The position numbers were made by a program, and so were the translations under genes. From Microbacterium sp. Nx66 (GTDB lineage Bacteria > Actinomycetota > Actinomycetes > Actinomycetales > Microbacteriaceae), in contig NZ_LR880474.1 in NCBI RefSeq assembly GCF_904066215.1, forward strand, positions 2,170,001 to 2,234,000: DNA of 64,000 nt, read 5' to 3'. Under the pieces are notes generated by a model. The model saw only the letters and a program-made list of their open reading frames with translations. It did no database searches and had not been told where the DNA came from. Numbering within the stretch: position 1 is the first letter of the stretch; each line of letters opens with the position of its first letter. Below are positions 11,702 through 26,811 of this stretch, one piece after another.

Positions 11702-12823
11702 TCAGAGGCCGCGCATGGTGATGAGACCGGTCGTCCACGGGCGCAGCGCGGAGGAACCGAGCGTACGCACCAGCCCCTCCCGCACGGCGACGACCGGGGC
11801 GACCGCCGGAGCCCCCATCGCCATGAAGAACGCGGAGCGATGATGCGCCTTCCGCGCCGCCCGCTGGACCTCCCGGGCGAAGCCGTCGAGGACGGGGGCG
11901 GCGCCGCGGTCGGTCCGGCGCAGCGCCGCGACCAGCCGGAGCGCATCCGCCCAGCCGAGGTTCATGCCCTGGCCGCCGATCGGGCTCACCTCGTGCGCGG
12001 CGTCGCCGAGTAGCACGATCCGTCCGCGGTGCAGCCGTCGAGCCGCGTGCTGGGCCGCGCGGAACGAGGAGACAGGCGCGGTGGGGTCGACCTCGAGCCT
12101 CTCCCCGGTCCGGTGACCGACGATGTCCGCCAGCTCGGCGGCTGTGGACACCGTCCGACCACGGTCTTCGCGCACCACCCAGCGGCGCCGGCCGCCCGGC
12201 AACGGGAAGGACTCGACGAGGCCGTCCGGCTCGAAGTACAGCACGGCGCGATCGTCGGCCGGCGGATCATCGACGTCGAGCATCGCGTAGCCTGCGGTTC
12301 CGGTGCGCGCCCGCCACCCCGCACCGAACGCCTCCCGCAGGGGACTCCGGACGCCCTCGGCGACGACGACGATCGACGCCGTCTCCTCCCGACGTCCGTG
12401 CTCGCCGTCGATCCCGACCCGCACGAACGGCCCCTCGTCGCGGACCGAGCGGACGACGGAGCCGGACTGCAGCGCATCCGGTTGCAGCGTCCGGAGACGG
12501 TCTCGCAGCAGCTCCTCGGTGCGGGGCTGCGCGAGCGTCAGGATCGGACGCTCGGTGGTGAAGGTCAGGGCGGCGAGTCGCCGGCCGCGGCTGCGGACCT
12601 CGCCGCCGGACAGGCGGAGCGCCTCGGAGCGCACGCCAGTACCCACTCCCGCGGCGTCGAGGGCATCGAGCCCCGGTCGATGGATCCCGATCGCCCGCGT
12701 CTGCGTGCCCGGCTCGGGGCGACGCTCGCACACCCGCACCCGGCGACCGTCCTGCCCCACGAGGCAGGCGAGGAGCAGCCCGACCGGACCGCCACCCACC
12801 ACGAGGACATCATGGTCGACCAT
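11702..12823 (-). CDS. FAD-dependent monooxygenase of the type III PKS cluster
   Basis: 373 residues from ATG 12823, preceded by GGGAGGG; a GTG two codons earlier is an alternative. Group A flavoprotein hydroxylase features: GGGPVG near residue 10, an Arg-rich strand (ERRPEPGTQTRA), and LLGDAAHEVSPIGGQGMNLGWADA binding FAD. By analogy with the srsABC logic of Streptomyces phenolic lipids, it may hydroxylate the aromatic product of the neighbouring polyketide synthase. Its 5' end overlaps the methyltransferase by 14 bases, so all three genes are one transcript. Confidence 0.85.
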   Translation of the reverse strand: MVDHDVLVVGGGPVGLLLACLVGQDGRRVRVCERRPEPGTQTRAIGIHRPGLDALDAAGVGTGVRSEALRLSGGEVRSRGRRLAALTFTTERPILTLAQPRTEELLRDRLRTLQPDALQSGSVVRSVRDEGPFVRVGIDGEHGRREETASIVVVAEGVRSPLREAFGAGWRARTGTAGYAMLDVDDPPADDRAVLYFEPDGLVESFPLPGGRRRWVVREDRGRTVSTAAELADIVGHRTGERLEVDPTAPVSSFRAAQHAARRLHRGRIVLLGDAAHEVSPIGGQGMNLGWADALRLVAALRRTDRGAAPVLDGFAREVQRAARKAHHRSAFFMAMGAPAVAPVVAVREGLVRTLGSSALRPWTTGLITMRGL

Positions 12824-17004: not shown

Positions 17005-18536
17005 ACGCTCCTCTCCGCGTCCTCGTGCTCTGGTTCCCCGACTGGCCACTGCGGGCGGTGCTGGGCGGAGGGCCGCATCCGCCGACGGCCCTGGTGCAGG
17101 CGAACACGGTCGTCGCCTGCACCGCCTCGGCGCGGGCGCACGGCGTCCGCATCGGGCAGCGCCGCCGCGTCGCCCAGGGCCTGCTCTCCTCGCTGCAGGT
17201 CCTCCCCCACGACGCCGAGAAGGACGAGCGCGCCTTCGTCCCGGTGCTGCAGCTCATCGAGAAGCACGCCCCCGGCGTCACACTCCTGCGCCCCGGCCTC
17301 GCGATCCTGCGCGCCCGCGGCATCGCCCGCTATCACGGCGGAGAGGCCGAAGCGGCGGCGGCGCTGTCCGCGGTCCTCGCTGCGGCCGGCTTCCCCGAGG
17401 TGCGTGTCGGCGTCGCCGACGGCCCCTTCACCGCCGAGATCGCGGCCCGCGGCGCCGCCGCCTGCACCGTCGTCCCGCCCGGCGGATCCCGCGAGTTCCT
17501 GGCCCCCTATCCCGTGCAGGTACTCCGCGACGAGCAGATCAGCGATCTCCTCCTCCGCCTCGGCGTGCGGACCCTCGGCGAGTTCACCGCGCTCGCCCCT
17601 CTCGACGTCCGCGACCGCTTCGGCGAGCACGGCGCCCGCCTGCAGGCCCTCGCCGCCGGCGCCGATTCCCGCCCGCTGGCCCCTCGGCCGCCGGATCCCG
17701 AACTGGCCAGGACCATCGAGTTCGAGTCCCCTCTCGGCGGCACCGACCAGGTGGCCTTCGCCGTGCGGCAGACCGCCGATGCCGTGATGCTCGCCCTGGC
17801 GGATGCATCCCTCGTGTGCACCGAGGTGCGGATCGACCTGACCGACGACGACGGCGTCGTCCACTCCCGCACCTGGCTGCATCCGACGAGCTTCGACGCC
17901 GCCGACCTCGTGGACCGCGTGCGCTGGCAGCTGGAGGCGCTGGCCGCCCTGACCGCCCGCGAACCCGTCGATGAGGCGAGGGCATTCGGGGGCATCGTGG
18001 CCGCCCGCCTCCTCCCCGTCGCCGTGGACGACGCCGCCCACCACCAACCGGGGCTCTTCGGCTCGGGTACCGATGAGCGGCTGCACCACGCGGTCTCGCG
18101 GGTGCAGACCATGCTGGGGCATCAGGGCGTGGTCACCGCCGCCCTCTCCGGAGGGCGCTGGCTCGCCGACCGCCAGGTGCTCACGCCATGGGGCGAGCGT
18201 CCGGTGCCTCCGCGTGATCCGCGGTCCCCCTGGCCGGGGAGCCTCCCGGATCCCCTCCCCTCCGAGGTGTTCCGGCCCCCGCGTCCCATCGGCGTCGTCG
18301 CGGCGGACGGGAGCACGATCGACGTCGATGACCGCGGCGCCCTCACGCACGATCCCGCCCGCATCGACGGGGCGACCGTGCAGGCCTGGGCCGGCCCGTG
18401 GCCCGTGCACGAACGGCGCTGGAGCACGGGCGGCGGCAAACGAGGACACCGGCTCCAGATCGTCGACGACCGCGACCGCGCCTGGCTGGTCTTCCTGGCC
18501 GGCGAGCGCTGGTGGGCCGAGGGGAGGTACCGCTGA
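17001..18536 (+). CDS. imuB: ImuB, inactive Y-family polymerase adaptor
   Basis: 511 residues, beginning with the characteristic VLVLWFPDWPL. Y-family palm, finger and little-finger regions follow, then a C-terminal extension. A beta-clamp binding motif QPGLFG occurs at residues 349-354. ImuB connects DnaE2 and ImuA' to the sliding clamp and is usually catalytically dead. The 1-4-base overlaps at both ends make this a strictly coupled three-gene operon. Confidence 0.93.
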   Translation: MNAPLRVLVLWFPDWPLRAVLGGGPHPPTALVQANTVVACTASARAHGVRIGQRRRVAQGLLSSLQVLPHDAEKDERAFVPVLQLIEKHAPGVTLLRPGLAILRARGIARYHGGEAEAAAALSAVLAAAGFPEVRVGVADGPFTAEIAARGAAACTVVPPGGSREFLAPYPVQVLRDEQISDLLLRLGVRTLGEFTALAPLDVRDRFGEHGARLQALAAGADSRPLAPRPPDPELARTIEFESPLGGTDQVAFAVRQTADAVMLALADASLVCTEVRIDLTDDDGVVHSRTWLHPTSFDAADLVDRVRWQLEALAALTAREPVDEARAFGGIVAARLLPVAVDDAAHHQPGLFGSGTDERLHHAVSRVQTMLGHQGVVTAALSGGRWLADRQVLTPWGERPVPPRDPRSPWPGSLPDPLPSEVFRPPRPIGVVAADGSTIDVDDRGALTHDPARIDGATVQAWAGPWPVHERRWSTGGGKRGHRLQIVDDRDRAWLVFLAGERWWAEGRYR

Positions 18537-21500
18537 TGGGCTGGCACAATCCGCCGTTGACCTGGGATCAGCTCGAACGCACTCTCAGCGGGGAACCCAT
18601 CCCCGAAGCGGCCTCCGCACCCCCGGGACTCCGACCGGATCCCGGGCCGGTGAGTCGCCCGCGGAAGCTCGTCCCCCCGGCCCTCCCGGAGCGGCCAGAG
18701 GAGGCGGTGCCCTATGCCGAGCTGCACGCGCACTCGTCCTACTCGTTCCTCGACGGGGCGTCCTCCCCCGACGACCTGCTCGCGGAGGCCGAACGTCTCG
18801 GCCTGAGCGCGCTCGCCCTCACCGACCACGACGGGTTCTACGGTGCCGCCCGCTTCGCCGAGCTGGCGGAGCTCATGGAGCTGCGCCTGCAGACCGTCTA
18901 CGGCGCCGAACTCTCCCTCGACCTCCCTTCCGCTCCGCAGGGGGCCGCCGATCCGCCGGGCACGCATCTGCTCGTGCTCGCCCGGGGCCTCGAGGGATAC
19001 CACCGTCTGTCGGGGGCGATCACCGCGGCCCAGCTGCGCGGCGGGGAGAAGGGGCGCCCGGTCTACGACCTCGACGAGCTGGCAGCGACCGCCGACGGGC
19101 ACTGGACGATCCTCACCGGCTGCCGCAAGGGGGCGGTACGGCAGGGGCTGGAGGCCGGAGACGCCGCTGCGCCGCTGCGTCACCTCGTCGACCTCTTCGG
19201 GCGCGACAACATCGCCGTCGAGCTCTTCGACCACGGCGATCCGCTGGACACCCGGCGCAACGACACCCTCGCCGACCTCGCCCGTCGGATGCGGCTGCCC
19301 GTCGTGGCGACCAACAACGTGCACTACGCCCGCCCGGACCAGGCCCCTCTCGCCGAAGCGGTGGCCGCGGTCCGCGCGGTCCGGAGCATGGACGAGCTCG
19401 ACGGCTGGCTGCCGGCCCACGGGGGTGCGCATCTGCGCAGCGGGGCGGAGATGACCGCCCGCTTCCGACGGTACCCCGGCGCGATCTCCCACGGTCTGGA
19501 GCTGGCCGCGGCCTCGGCCTTCCCGCTCCGGATGGCGCGTCCCGCCCTCCCCCGCCAGGACGTGCCGTCGGGGCACACCCCGATGAGCTGGCTGCGGCAC
19601 CTGGTCTGGGAGGCGGTCCCGTCGAAGTATCCGCGGCTGGACGAAGACGGCCGTCGGCGCATCGCCCGTGAACTCGACGTGATCGAGGAGAAGGACTTCC
19701 CCGGGTACTTCCTCATCGTGCACGGCATCGTGGCGGAAGCACGGCGACGCGGCATCCTCTGCCAGGGCCGGGGTTCCGCTGCGGCGAGCGCGGTCTGCTA
19801 TCTGCTGGGCATCACCGCGGTCGACCCGATCCTCTACCGCCTCCCCTTCGAGCGCTTCCTCGCCACCACCCGCACGGAGGAGCCGGACATCGACGTGGAC
19901 TTCGACTCGCGGCGGCGGGAGGAGATCATCCAGTGGGTCTATCGGGAGTATGGCAGGGAGCGGGCGGCTCAGGTGGCGAACGTCATCCAGTACCGCCCGA
20001 AGAACGCGGTCCGCGACATGGCCAGAGCCCTGGGGCACTCGCCGGGGCAGCAGGACTCCTGGTCGCGGCAGGTGGACGGCTGGGGGTCGGGACTCGAACC
20101 CGTCGAGGGGCACGACATCCCCGACACCGTGCTCGACTACGCGGCCGAGCTGCTGAAGGCTCCGCGGCACCTGGGGATCCACTCGGGCGGCATGGTGCTC
20201 ACCGCCCGGCCGGTCGGTGAGGTGGTGCCGGTCGAGCACGCCCGCATGGAGGACCGCACCGTCATCCAGTGGGACAAGGACGACGCCGCCTTCATGGGGC
20301 TGGTGAAGTTCGATCTCCTCGGCCTGGGCATGCTCGCGGCACTGCAGCACTGCTTCGACCTGGTCCGGGAGGCGACGGGCGAGGAGTGGACGCTGGAGAC
20401 CCTGCCGAAGGAGGAGGCCGGCGTCTACGACATGCTCTGCCGGGCCGATTCGATCGGCGTCTTCCAGGTGGAGTCCCGCGCGCAGATCGGGCTGCTCCCC
20501 CGGCTGCAGCCGCGACGCTTCTACGACCTCGCCATCCAGATCGCCCTCATCCGCCCCGGGCCCATCCAGGGCGGCGCCGTGCACCCGTTCGTCCGGCGCA
20601 AGATGGCGAAGGACAGGGTGGACGAGGCGAACCGGGAGCGGGAGGCCAGGGGCGAGCCCCCGGAGGACTTCCCCATCCCGTACCCGCACAGCGACCTCGA
20701 GGACATCCTCGCGCGGACTCTGGGCATCCCCATCTTCCAGGAGCAGCTCATCCAGATGGCCACGGCCGTCGGCGACTGCACCGCCGATGAGGCCGACCTG
20801 CTGCGCCGCGCGATGGGGTCGAAGCGAGGTCTGGAGAAGATCGAGAAGGTCAGGGACAAGCTGTATGCGGGGATGGCCCGCCGCGGGCTCGTCGACGAGG
20901 CCGCCGACCGGATCTATGCGCAGATCCAGGCGTTCTCGAACTTCGGGTTCGCCGAGTCCCATTCGCTGTCCTTCGCGCTGCTCGTCTACGCGAGCTCGTG
21001 GTTGAAGCTGCACTACCCGGCAGCCTTCCTCGCGGGTCTGCTGCGCTCGCAGCCGATGGGCTTCTACTCCCCTGCGACCCTCACGGCGGATGCCCGTCGG
21101 CACGGCGTGGAGGTCCGCCGCCCGGATCTGCATCTCTCCGGCGCCACCGAGACCCTCGAACCCCTCACCCCGGACGCGGCGGGCACGACCGGGAGGGACG
21201 ACTGCCTGGCCGACCCGCAGCCGCCCGTGCACCGGTTCGACAGGAACGCACCGGACGAGTCCGCGACGCACCGCAGGGACGGACGGTTCGCGGTGCGTCT
21301 GGGCCTCAGCGGCATCCGCGGGATCGGGGTGCCGATGGCGGAGCGCATCGTCGCCGAACGGGAGGCTCACGGTCCCTACCGCGATCTGCACGACCTCGTG
21401 CGTCGCACCGATGCCACGGCCGCACAGGTGGAGGCCCTCGCCACCGCCGGAGCCTTCGCCTGCCTCGGGTTGGAGCGCCGGGAGGCCATCTGGCTCGCCG

Positions 21501-21991
21501 GGGCCGCCGCGGAAGACCGCGCCCGGTTCCTCCCGGGGACCACGATGGCGGTGCAGCCGCCGCTGTTCGCCGACCAGACCAGCTACGAGCGCCTCTCGGC
21601 CGATCTCTGGGCCACGGGCATCTCGACCGACGACCACCCGATGACGCACTTCCGCGGCGACCTCCGGACTCGCGGCGTCCTGACCGCCGCGGACCTGCAG
21701 CGCCACGAGACCGGACGACGCGTCGAGGTGGCCGGTCTCGTCACCCATCGACAACGACCCGCCACCGCCGCCGGCGTCACGTTCGTCAACCTCGAGGACG
21801 AGAGCGGGTTGGTGAACGTGATCTGCTCGACGGGGGTCTGGGGACGGTTCGGTCGCATCGCCCGAGAGTCCCCCGCGCTCATCATCCGCGGCATCCTCGA
21901 GCGCTCACCGGAGGGGGTCGTCAATGTGCTCGCCGACGCCTTCGAAGACCTCCGCACGGGGGTCATGCACCGCTCGCGGGACTTCCGATGA
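18536..21991 (+). CDS. dnaE2: Error-prone DNA polymerase III alpha subunit DnaE2
   Basis: 1151 residues. PHP domain at the N-terminus (ELHAHSSYSFLDGASSP, then TDHDG), C-family polymerase core (GRGSAAASAVCYLLGIT, PDIDVDFDSRRR, KFDLLGLGML, ALIRPGPIQGG, FGFAESHS), helix-hairpin-helix region (GLSGIRGIGVPMAE) and an OB fold (VEVAGLVTHRQRPATAAGVTFVNLEDE). It is the translesion polymerase of the SOS mutasome. Start ATG 18536 follows GGGGAGG and overlaps the imuB TGA by one base. Confidence 0.97.
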   Translation: MGWHNPPLTWDQLERTLSGEPIPEAASAPPGLRPDPGPVSRPRKLVPPALPERPEEAVPYAELHAHSSYSFLDGASSPDDLLAEAERLGLSALALTDHDGFYGAARFAELAELMELRLQTVYGAELSLDLPSAPQGAADPPGTHLLVLARGLEGYHRLSGAITAAQLRGGEKGRPVYDLDELAATADGHWTILTGCRKGAVRQGLEAGDAAAPLRHLVDLFGRDNIAVELFDHGDPLDTRRNDTLADLARRMRLPVVATNNVHYARPDQAPLAEAVAAVRAVRSMDELDGWLPAHGGAHLRSGAEMTARFRRYPGAISHGLELAAASAFPLRMARPALPRQDVPSGHTPMSWLRHLVWEAVPSKYPRLDEDGRRRIARELDVIEEKDFPGYFLIVHGIVAEARRRGILCQGRGSAAASAVCYLLGITAVDPILYRLPFERFLATTRTEEPDIDVDFDSRRREEIIQWVYREYGRERAAQVANVIQYRPKNAVRDMARALGHSPGQQDSWSRQVDGWGSGLEPVEGHDIPDTVLDYAAELLKAPRHLGIHSGGMVLTARPVGEVVPVEHARMEDRTVIQWDKDDAAFMGLVKFDLLGLGMLAALQHCFDLVREATGEEWTLETLPKEEAGVYDMLCRADSIGVFQVESRAQIGLLPRLQPRRFYDLAIQIALIRPGPIQGGAVHPFVRRKMAKDRVDEANREREARGEPPEDFPIPYPHSDLEDILARTLGIPIFQEQLIQMATAVGDCTADEADLLRRAMGSKRGLEKIEKVRDKLYAGMARRGLVDEAADRIYAQIQAFSNFGFAESHSLSFALLVYASSWLKLHYPAAFLAGLLRSQPMGFYSPATLTADARRHGVEVRRPDLHLSGATETLEPLTPDAAGTTGRDDCLADPQPPVHRFDRNAPDESATHRRDGRFAVRLGLSGIRGIGVPMAERIVAEREAHGPYRDLHDLVRRTDATAAQVEALATAGAFACLGLERREAIWLAGAAAEDRARFLPGTTMAVQPPLFADQTSYERLSADLWATGISTDDHPMTHFRGDLRTRGVLTAADLQRHETGRRVEVAGLVTHRQRPATAAGVTFVNLEDESGLVNVICSTGVWGRFGRIARESPALIIRGILERSPEGVVNVLADAFEDLRTGVMHRSRDFR

Positions 21992-23971: not shown

Positions 23972-24553
23972 CTACCGATCGCCGACGTGACCCGGCGCGG
24001 TGAGCGAGAGGACCCGCTCGACGAACGCCGCGTACTCCTCCATGTAGTGCGCGAGGAACTTCTCGGTGTCGGCGTCGTGCACCGTGCCGTCGGCACCGAA
24101 CACCTCGGGCCGGAACGCGATGTACGCCTCCGGGGCGTTCAGCTGCGGCGCGTTGAGGAAGCTCAGCACGCTCCGCATCGACGACTGCATGACAGCGGTG
24201 CCGATCGCCCCGGTCGAGGCGCCGATGATGCCGGTGGGCTTCCGCGCGAAGGAGTTGTGCCCCCACGGCCGCGAACCCCAGTCGATGGCGTTCTTCAGCG
24301 CACCGGGGATGGAGCGGTTGTACTCCGGCGACACGAGCAGCAGACCGTCCGCCCCCTCGACGGCACTCTTGAACGCGGTGACAGCGGCGACGGGTTCGAG
24401 CTCGTCGTCGCGGTTGTAGAGCGGGAGGTCCCGGATGGGGATCTCCACGAGCTCCAGGTCGGGCGGGGCGAGCCGCACGAGCGCCGTGGCGAGGACGCGG
24501 TTGATCGAGTCCGATGCGAGGCTGCCGATGAGGTAGCCGATCCGATGGGTCAT
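23972..24553 (-). CDS. NADPH-dependent FMN reductase
   Basis: 193 residues with the flavodoxin-like reductase pattern: IGSLASDSINRVLATAL (FMN phosphate loop) and SPEYNRSIPGALKNAIDWGSRP in the middle. It belongs to the NAD(P)H:quinone/azo reductase group and probably handles quinones or other electrophiles. It is divergent from helR; the intervening 128 bases hold the RAE. Confidence 0.9.
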   Translation of the reverse strand: MTHRIGYLIGSLASDSINRVLATALVRLAPPDLELVEIPIRDLPLYNRDDELEPVAAVTAFKSAVEGADGLLLVSPEYNRSIPGALKNAIDWGSRPWGHNSFARKPTGIIGASTGAIGTAVMQSSMRSVLSFLNAPQLNAPEAYIAFRPEVFGADGTVHDADTEKFLAHYMEEYAAFVERVLSLTAPGHVGDR

Positions 24554-24600
24554 GATGAGGTCCCCTCGTCTCCCTGCACTTCCAGGATATCGCCGGGGTG

Positions 24601-24620
24601 GGGGCTTGCCACAAGGCCCC
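24601..24620 (+). promoter_or_regulatory. Rifamycin-associated element (RAE) upstream of helR
   Basis: An inverted repeat GGGGCTTG..CAAGGCCCC matches the known RAE consensus that precedes rifamycin-resistance genes in actinobacteria (remembered as GGGGCTTGCGGCAAGGCCCC). It lies 62 bases before the helR GTG. It predicts that helR is induced by rifamycins. Confidence 0.8.
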
Positions 24621-24681
24621 CCTCGCGAGGCAGAATCGACGGCTCGCGTGCCCCCGCCCGCTCTCGCGAAGGAGACCTCCG

Positions 24682-26811
24682 GTGCTCGACCCCTTCACCC
24701 TGCCCGACGACCACGCGGCGAAATCCGCGGATGCCCTCATCGCCGTCGATCGTGCCCACCTCCGGCGTCTCGGCGCCGCGCTGTCCCGGGAGCGGGACGC
24801 CCTGACCGCTCGTCTCGCCCTCGTCCGTCGGCAGGCCGCGGACGCCGGTGTGACGGCGGTCGACCGCGACCTCGAGATCCGACGGCTCAGTGCGACCCTG
24901 CGCCTGCGGGAGCGCTTCGACATCGACATGTGCCTCGGGCGGATGACCCCTGCGGAGGGCCCGCCCGTGTACATCGGGCGCGCCGGGGTGTCCGACGCGG
25001 ACGGCACCCGTCTGCTGGTCGACTGGCGGGCTCCGGCAGCCGAACCGTACTTCGCGGCGACCTGGGAGGACCCCCGGGGACTCATCTCCCGGCGACGGTA
25101 CCGATGGAACGCAGGCCGGATCACGGACTACTGGGACGAGGCCCTGTCGCCGGAGGGTCTCGACGGTGCGGCATCCCTCGACGATCAGTCCGCGTTCCTC
25201 GCGAGCCTGGAGGCGCACCGCACCGGGCGGATGCGGGACGTGCTGGCGACGATCCAGGCGGATCAGGACGCCATCGTTCGCGCCCCCTCCCCCGGCGCTC
25301 TCGTGGTGGACGGCGGGCCCGGCACCGGGAAGACGGTGGTCGCGCTGCACCGGGCGGCGCACCTCCTGTACGCCGAGCCGCGGCTGACGAACGGCGCCGG
25401 CGGCATGCTCCTCGTGGGTCCGAACCCGCAGTACCTCGGCTATGTGGAGGACGTGCTGCCGAGTCTCGGCGAGGACACGGTGCGGTTGTGCACCCTGCGC
25501 GACCTCACACCCGAGGGCGCGGGCGCGGTCGCAGAGCAGGACCCCCGCGTGGCCGAGCTGAAGCAGGGCCTCGACCCGGACCAGGTGATCGAGGCGGCGG
25601 TCGCCGTCCTGACCCGGCCACCGAGGCACGCGCTCCGCATCGAGACGCCGTGGGCCGATCTGTGGATCAGCCGAGACGACTGGGGCGAGCTGTTCGCCGC
25701 GGCCGATCCCGCCTCCCCGCTCAACGAGGCCCGCGACGAGGTGTGGGAGGAGCTGCTGGAACTGCTCGTCGACCAGGTGCACGGCGAGGACGTTCCGGAG
25801 TCCTCGATCCGCCGGTGGCTGCGGCAGGACGACGAGCTCACCGGGACCTTCGTACGGGCGTGGCCGCTGCTGGCGCCGGAAGCGGTGGTCGCCGCGCTCT
25901 GGGCGTCCCCGACGCTGCTCGCGCAGTGCGCCCCCGACCTCGCGCCCGAGGAGCTCGCCCTGCTGCACCGTGCCGAGGGGGCGCCCTGGACCGATCCCGA
26001 TCTTCCCCTCCTCGACGCCGCGCACCGCCGGATCGGCGATCCCGAGGTCGTCCGCGAGCAGCACCGTCGGCAGGGCGCGGCGGCCGCGGCGCAGGAGCAG
26101 ATGTCGGCGGTGGTCGAGCACCTCGTCGCGAGCGACGACAGCGAGATGAAGGTGATGTCGATCCTGCGAGGTCAGGATGCGCGCAACGTTCTCGCCGGAG
26201 CGGACGTGCCTCCCCCGCTCCCGCCGGACGAACTCGCCGGCCCCTTCGGTCACATCGTCGTCGACGAGGCCCAGGAGCTGACCGATGCGCAGTGGCGCAT
26301 GCTGATCGCACGGTGCCCCTCCCGCAGCTTCACCGTCGTGGGCGACAGGGCCCAGGCGCGGAGGGAGTTCACCGAGTCGTGGTCCGCCCGCCTCGAACGT
26401 CTCGGCCTGCGGAACGTGCGGGTCTCCTCGCTCCGGGTGAACTACCGCACTCCGGCCGAGGTCATGGCGCTGGCCGCACCGACGATCCGCGAGGCTCTGC
26501 CCGACGCGAACGTCCCGACCTCCGTGCGGGAGAGCAGCATCCCGGTCCGCTACGGCGCGGTGGCCGAGCTCGACGCGGTGCTGGACACGTGGGCAGCGGC
26601 GAACCCCGAGGGCGTCGCCGCCGTCATCGGCGACGAGAGTGCCGTGCCGCGCCCCCGGGTGCGCGCGCTGACGCCGGAGGAAGCGAAAGGGCTGGAGTTC
26701 GACCTCGTGGTCCTCGTGCGCCCGGAGGCCTTCGGCTCCGGGCGCACGGGGGCGGTCGACCGCTATGTGGCGATGACCCGCACGACGCGCGAACTCGTCA
26801 TCCTCCGCTGA
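24682..26811 (+). CDS. helR: RNA polymerase recycling motor ATPase HelR (HelD-like)
   Basis: 709 residues from GTG 24682 (AAGGAGA upstream). An N-terminal coiled coil (about 10-75) is followed by an SF1-type ATPase: Walker A GGPGTGKT at about 210, Walker B VVDEAQE at about 526, and late motifs GDRAQARREF and RVNYRTPAEVM. Length and architecture fit the actinobacterial HelR/HelD factors that pull stalled or rifamycin-bound RNA polymerase off DNA. The RAE upstream strongly favours HelR over an ordinary UvrD helicase. It is monocistronic and ends at a short hairpin. Confidence 0.9.
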   Translation: MLDPFTLPDDHAAKSADALIAVDRAHLRRLGAALSRERDALTARLALVRRQAADAGVTAVDRDLEIRRLSATLRLRERFDIDMCLGRMTPAEGPPVYIGRAGVSDADGTRLLVDWRAPAAEPYFAATWEDPRGLISRRRYRWNAGRITDYWDEALSPEGLDGAASLDDQSAFLASLEAHRTGRMRDVLATIQADQDAIVRAPSPGALVVDGGPGTGKTVVALHRAAHLLYAEPRLTNGAGGMLLVGPNPQYLGYVEDVLPSLGEDTVRLCTLRDLTPEGAGAVAEQDPRVAELKQGLDPDQVIEAAVAVLTRPPRHALRIETPWADLWISRDDWGELFAAADPASPLNEARDEVWEELLELLVDQVHGEDVPESSIRRWLRQDDELTGTFVRAWPLLAPEAVVAALWASPTLLAQCAPDLAPEELALLHRAEGAPWTDPDLPLLDAAHRRIGDPEVVREQHRRQGAAAAAQEQMSAVVEHLVASDDSEMKVMSILRGQDARNVLAGADVPPPLPPDELAGPFGHIVVDEAQELTDAQWRMLIARCPSRSFTVVGDRAQARREFTESWSARLERLGLRNVRVSSLRVNYRTPAEVMALAAPTIREALPDANVPTSVRESSIPVRYGAVAELDAVLDTWAAANPEGVAAVIGDESAVPRPRVRALTPEEAKGLEFDLVVLVRPEAFGSGRTGAVDRYVAMTRTTRELVILR

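Follow-up and report, generated by a model that had tools for sequence, protein, structure and literature searches.

The rifamycin-associated element (RAE) is linked to the genes rgt, rox and helR, and rifampicin induces helR and arr, according to the passages on this element in a 2022 review (PMC10719064). The part of a second paper that deals with the RAE places inactivating enzymes under its control and describes it upstream of helicases (PMC10194278). The same sections of the 2022 review locate P1, a sense promoter of Mycobacterium smegmatis, some 20 bp upstream of the element. A related system is the helD/pps pair of Bacillus subtilis, in which two convergent promoters at helD, the antisense one stronger than the sense one, were shown experimentally to sense rifampicin; 39 bp separate the two starts, and a 17-bp shortening abolishes induction (relevant sections of PMC12802891). 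As a general bacterial finding, the abstract of PMC6978322 reports that RNA polymerase (RNAP) can remain DNA-bound once it has terminated, and then re-initiate. The 2022 review and the 2026 paper on B. subtilis both call the mechanism of rifamycin sensing by the RAE open, in the passages of each that address it (PMC10719064, PMC12802891).

The helR locus of Microbacterium sp. Nx66 described here shares with the RAE-controlled helR, arr, rox, rph and rgt genes of Actinobacteria the same 19-bp palindrome and the same kinds of gene. Relative to the published portions covered, what is added here is a putative antisense −10 element, equal 19-bp spacers, an asymmetry of strong and weak hexamers and a predicted terminator at the antisense +1. 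The presumed likeness to the B. subtilis alarm is that the sense promoter of a HelD-type gene would face opposition from a stronger antisense promoter, the strengths at the RAE being judged from the hexamers (TAnnnT versus CAnAAT). The geometry is different: in place of convergent promoters with 39 bp between the starts, the two −10 elements at the RAE point away from each other, and their −35 elements are shared and overlap. The re-initiating polymerase offers a further likeness, as a route to a local polymerase at a promoter–terminator unit; the abstract of that paper draws no link to rifamycin sensing. No antisense promoter or terminator at the RAE appears in the sections covered of the open-access PMC literature (CC0, CC BY and CC BY-SA). 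As far as those sections go, a divergent pair of unequal promoters with a frequent antisense mini-transcript is undescribed; the primary RAE and HelR papers (Spanogiannopoulos 2014, Surette 2022 and Hurst-Hess 2022) could describe it in part.

The RAE and helR of Microbacterium sp. Nx66

The window is a stretch of 64,000 nucleotides from Microbacterium sp. Nx66 (contig NZ_LR880474.1, positions 2,170,001 to 2,234,000), and coordinates without a prefix refer to it. A sequence-only reading of this DNA had proposed that a 20-base inverted repeat matching the RAE lies 62 bases before a gene for a HelD/HelR ATPase of 709 residues. The repeat is indeed a RAE, with a length of 19 bp (GGGGCTTGCCACAAGGCCC), and the distance from its end to the GTG at 24682 is 62 bp as claimed. 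This start of helR is inferred, and AAGGAGA precedes it. The pairing of a RAE with a following helR is already known. The features of the locus are the following.

23972..24553, minus strand: gene for an NADPH-dependent FMN reductase of 193 aa (PF03358, 113.6 bits)
24577..24577, minus strand: predicted antisense +1, a G, the 7th base after the antisense −10
24584..24589, minus strand: antisense −10-like hexamer TATCCT, directed away from helR, 19-bp spacer
24601..24619, no strand: RAE palindrome (pattern match), putative common −35 region of two divergent promoters
24606..24611, plus strand: sense −35 hexamer TTGCCA, inside the RAE, 19 bp from the −10-like hexamer
24609..24614, minus strand: antisense −35 hexamer TTGTGG, inside the RAE and overlapping the sense −35 (from the module alignment)
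24631..24636, plus strand: sense −10-like hexamer CAGAAT, weak with C in first place, directed toward helR, 19-bp spacer
24682..26811, plus strand: helR, RNA polymerase recycling ATPase of 709 aa (relative of PDB 6yxu)

The element shows the CTTGNNNCAAG palindrome over 19 bp with GGG/CCC arms and lies just 5' of a rifamycin gene. It departs at 2 of 19 positions from the RAE consensus, and 0.06 matches at up to 3 mismatches would be expected in a shuffled window. A scan of the 3.46-Mb genome, a check that the sequence-only reading had suggested, returns the window site alone for GGGSCTTGNNNCAAGSCCC with up to 2 mismatches, with 9 matches per strand for the reversed control. A looser pattern finds a second, imperfect RAE-like site in the same genome, GGGTCTTCAGACAAGACCC at C1:2597786, with 1 mismatch. 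Rfam gives a single match near the RAE (E 0.87, far below the gathering score), which we take to be a chance match.

The assignment of the ATPase to the HelR family stands as well. The protein matches the model NF041254, 'RNA polymerase recycling motor ATPase HelR', with 1050.2 bits (cut-off 750) over residues 5–709. Its nearest solved relative by sequence is M. smegmatis HelD, in PDB entry 6yxu and seven other entries, a relative over the full length at E 1.4e-95; the window protein nonetheless fits the HelR model and misses the HelD_MYCSM model, where it reaches 362 bits against a cut-off of 1051. The median identity to the 39 blastp matches that adjoin RAEs outside the genus set is 55%. By analogy with its relatives, helR of the window would be inducible and would provide rifamycin tolerance.

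The statement of the earlier reading that arr and rph are missing from the window can be extended to the whole genome. PF12120 (arr) gives 0 matches, and neither an rph nor an rgt relative is found in searches run without a positive control. A query with rox retrieves distant FAD monooxygenases alone, of 33 and 38% identity. One distant rox-like FAD monooxygenase lies inside the window at about 11846–12811, and the long open reading frame at 18398–21991 on the plus strand presumably, judged by eye, encodes a DnaE-type polymerase. The segment of RpoB that forms the rifamycin pocket (locus L262, C1:812691–814517) carries Asn at a position where 20 of 27 genus members have His; Asn is present in 7 of the 27 read, this genome among them. 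The Asn variant may by itself alter rifamycin binding, and hence induction.

A putative divergent promoter module around the RAE

A total of 146 RAE sites was gathered: the site of the window, 21 from a pattern search of the genus, 3 in viral contigs and the other 121 from a scan of GTDB genomes that yields at least this number. The genus pattern matched 129 of 198 genomes, many by chance, and the 21 sites come from 30 fetched loci. Neighbouring genes were assigned by tblastn with references taken from the loci themselves; by these labels, of which some for rox or helR may denote paralogues, 132 of the 146 sites adjoin a gene, namely helR (62), rox (37), rgt (13), arr (10), rph (9) or an MFS transporter (1). 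Among the references, rph and both arr lie above the NCBIfam cut-offs, while those for rox and rgt score best with the rifampin monooxygenase and Rgt models, yet below the cut-off. The MFS reference is a DHA2-like transporter.

With the sites oriented on the neighbouring gene, an antisense TAnnnT stands 19 bp from the TTG of the palindrome in 124 of 132; at the other spacings from 12 to 29 it occurs in at most 1 site each. On the sense side, 129 of the 132 sites have nAnnnT with the 19-bp spacing; in these, as in the window, the −35 of the predicted sense promoter overlaps the palindrome. The composition of the sense hexamer is CAnAAT in 93 of the 132 sites and TAnnnT in merely 2. After a filter at 75% flank identity, which keeps 126 of the 132 sites, CAGAAT is the commonest sense hexamer (66/126). 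Within each gene family, the antisense −10 is almost as invariant as the sense −10. Because both −10 elements keep this fixed spacing of 19 bp, the RAE has the appearance of a −35 common to two divergent promoters that would exclude each other, a strong antisense one and a weak sense one.

P1 of M. smegmatis has no conserved counterpart in this site set: upstream of the RAE there is no sense TAnnnT peak, and the highest count is 9 of 126, at −18. An inverted repeat on the sense side, CCGCAG..CTGCGG around the start, was set aside as not general (mean z of −0.64 overall and −1.88 for rgt). Fourteen sites are without an assigned gene. Three of them (L073, L102, L171), which lie close to the locus end on the gene's side, carry the module; it is absent from the remaining 11, none of which is labelled actinobacterial and which include all 3 RAE matches in viral contigs.

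A search with the two −10 positions and CTTGNNNCAAG, in which the GGG/CCC arms were left free, matches 193 of 394 genomes of the class, compared with 4 of 394 for the reversed control as read off the table. In the 30 loci fetched from 30 of these 193 genomes, the next gene is helR (25), rox (2), rgt (1), rph (1) or an MFS-like gene (1). The arms had not been asked for, yet they are present in most of the arm-free matches among those listed, and thus they seem to be conserved independently.

Predicted antisense start and terminator

In 120 of 126 sites the base at the predicted antisense +1 is a G. The RNA that would begin there tends to fold. For the first 39 antisense nucleotides the mean folding z is −1.30, and further out it is −0.22 and −0.08. 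A stem of at least 7 bp beginning at +1 to +4 is found at 43 of 126 antisense sites; the same strand gives 0–4 when shifted by 40–100 bases, the sense start gives 6 of 126, and shuffles give 40 of 2520. The 8 bases that follow the antisense stem are 57% T (at most 22% in the controls), and this T-rich tract lies on the antisense strand. When all starts are scanned, 47 loci have a stem of at least 8 bp, which in 27 of them begins exactly at +1. Under RNAfold, with a limit on the energy and four or more T demanded, 42 of 126 sites pass; six other places yield 0–5, and of 630 dinucleotide shuffles 30 pass. The antisense RNA of about a third of the loci is predicted from this hairpin and U-tract to be self-terminating, with a length of about 30 nt.

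The form of the hairpin is constant and its sequence varied in Prauserella, Aeromicrobium, Stenotrophomonas (L126, L130) and a Xanthomonadaceae MAG (L145). Covariation of column pairs in a fixed register around the RAE was also tried and discarded; no helix stands out, and the loop lengths vary. Two thirds of the loci fall short of the terminator thresholds. The window is among them, with neither hairpin nor terminator at its antisense start (z of +0.38). In the Microbacterium set, a terminator is present at 3 of 21 sites and lacking at 18.

helR, RAE and the divergent reductase in the genus

HelR scores above its cut-off in 79 of the 198 genomes of the genus sample, and 73 of these 79 loci have a RAE, counted as the exact core or with no more than 2 mismatches, in the roughly 400 bp before helR (63 of 65 with an alignment-placed start and 10 of the remaining 14). 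Among the 63, the antisense −10 is TATCCT in 43, as in the window; one locus (L057) is without an antisense −10, and in another (L221) the sense −10 is displaced by one base.

The predicted antisense promoter of the window points into the FMN reductase gene, which starts 24 nt after the antisense +1. An FMN reductase divergent to helR is found in 9 of the 79 genus loci, the window being one of them, and a Microbacterium MAG (L147) has a similar palindrome, the −10 elements and a divergent reductase. The idea that the hairpin substitutes for a divergent gene was rejected: with 115 of 126 sites scored by a crude GC3 gene caller, a divergent open reading frame is present at 9 and absent at 31 of the sites with a hairpin, against 21 and 54 of those lacking one (p = 0.66). 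As the two are unassociated, the reductase does not just stand in for the terminator. It is an open idea that the FMN reductase acts on the quinone/hydroquinone core of rifamycins.

Spread beyond Actinobacteria and unusual loci

Two loci of Stenotrophomonas maltophilia (L126, L130) and the Xanthomonadaceae MAG (L145) carry the RAE, both −10 elements and an antisense hairpin with T6 before arr, and the Arr of L130 passes the NCBIfam model rifampin_ARR. These arr modules in Gammaproteobacteria would reflect either a passage of the complete module from one phylum to another or its wide use. Five loci with a rifamycin gene are labelled Proteobacteria, and two of these (L153, L166) are without the full −10 pair. 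In three MAG loci labelled Chloroflexi (L132, L150, L180), for which contamination is possible, the −10 pair is present.

In three loci the RAE module is followed by an MFS transporter (L081, where it is DHA2-like, L137, where it is divergent to helR, and L195); such a transporter is a candidate pump for rifamycin efflux. A pair of RAE modules inside a single 8-kb stretch occurs in Rhodococcus oryzae (L084, before helR and rox) and in a Streptomyces (L175, before helR and rgt, which are divergent). In the locus L107 a single RAE is flanked by rgt in the sense direction and, at a distance of 246 bp in the antisense direction, by a HelD relative of 36% identity; its putative antisense promoter may serve a second drug-response gene as well.

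Discussion

We lean towards a reading in which the RAE is a composite promoter whose antisense side holds a polymerase, and in which a rifamycin breaks this hold and brings about expression of helR. The palindrome would carry the −35 elements of two overlapping divergent promoters with equal 19-bp spacers, the antisense one strong (TAnnnT; TATCCT in the window) and the sense one weak (CAnAAT; CAGAAT in the window). Since the −35 region is common, the geometry implies that two polymerases should not bind together, and one RNAP at a time would occupy either promoter. When the drug is absent, the antisense promoter would retain the polymerase and helR would stay low. Because the antisense transcript of many lineages seems to reach no more than about 30 nt, its role would be occupancy and not a product. 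Rifamycin would end the antisense hold, the weak sense promoter would fire, and HelR would then remove the drug-jammed polymerase. We infer that both hexamers work as promoters, and likewise their relative strength, their mutual exclusion and the induction by the drug.

Plain promoter occlusion can be rejected as the mechanism of induction. In a toy model with two exclusive promoters fed from one RNAP pool, it never lifts the sense output once some of the pool carries the drug, with a maximum just under 1.0 across 200000 parameter sets; plain competition for a common RNAP pool does not suffice, and an extra element is therefore needed. A captive-RNAP variant of the model, in which drug-free RNAP lingers on the antisense side and drugged RNAP is cleared, gives more than 5-fold induction in 36% of random sets, a result that shows possibility only. 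We speculate that a polymerase, either long-lived or re-initiating locally, provides the hold in preference to a repressor; as a working hypothesis, one RNAP could be retained at a promoter whose terminator lies 30 bp further on. A stronger version, about which we are tentative and on the whole doubtful, makes RNAP itself the rifamycin sensor at the RAE, with no dedicated regulator: the antisense polymerase would block the shared −35 until the drug kills it in place, it would then be cleared, and the sense promoter would fire.

Several observations speak against the composite promoter: P1 of M. smegmatis lacks a conserved counterpart here, plain competition needs an extra element, two thirds of the loci fall short of a terminator, L153 and L166 are without the full −10 pair, and hairpins do not go with a missing divergent gene. 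The GGG/CCC arms, moreover, exceed a −35 element and would suit a protein operator. The conservation of these arms makes a putative rifamycin-responsive repressor a serious rival. Such a repressor would bind the RAE as its operator and shut both promoters until the drug releases it, and the antisense promoter would be a by-product or would serve the neighbouring gene. Besides the arms, kept in most matches listed though the search left them free, the centre of the palindrome coincides with the −35 of both predicted promoters, where a repressor might be expected to bind, and a further factor is raised as a possibility in passages of PMC10719064 and PMC12802891, although those passages name none. 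A repressor leaves unexplained why rifamycin genes of five kinds, and the Stenotrophomonas loci too, have kept a strong, often self-terminating antisense promoter in front, and why the sense −10 is so weak, with TAnnnT in 2 of 132 sites. We consider this explanation possible, but would not expect it to be the right one.

The antisense side admits two other explanations. The short hairpin RNA could be the effector and repress sense transcription, in cis or in trans, until rifamycin stops its synthesis, and the hairpin at +1 with its U-tract, in about a third of the loci, with a form kept while the sequence varies between genera, is consistent with this. The variable sequence of the stem argues against it, however, as do the geometry, by which the RNA would not overlap the sense transcript, and the two thirds of loci, window included, without a recognisable hairpin; we hold such an effector to be very improbable. 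Alternatively, the sense promoter alone would matter, and the antisense hexamer and hairpin would insulate the locus or serve the upstream gene. A promoter over the RAE, P2, whose −35 overlaps the element, is already published (relevant passage of PMC10719064), and in the window the FMN reductase begins 24 nt after the predicted antisense start. This explanation is unlikely given that the antisense −10 is near-invariant in each gene family, that hairpins begin exactly at the antisense +1 (27 of 47) and that the T-rich tract follows on the antisense strand.

For the composite promoter with its antisense hold, which we favour slightly, the meaning extends beyond this locus. A fixed divergent pair before five rifamycin gene families and in Stenotrophomonas makes the question of RAE sensing directly testable, and the promoter pair points to the polymerase as a possible rifamycin sensor. 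The arm-free module also provides a sharper search pattern, with a known rifamycin gene next to it in 29 of the 30 fetched loci. If RNAP is the sensor, the RAE would be the divergent, overlapping counterpart of the Bacillus alarm, and the sensor module would be movable between phyla as a complete unit along with arr.
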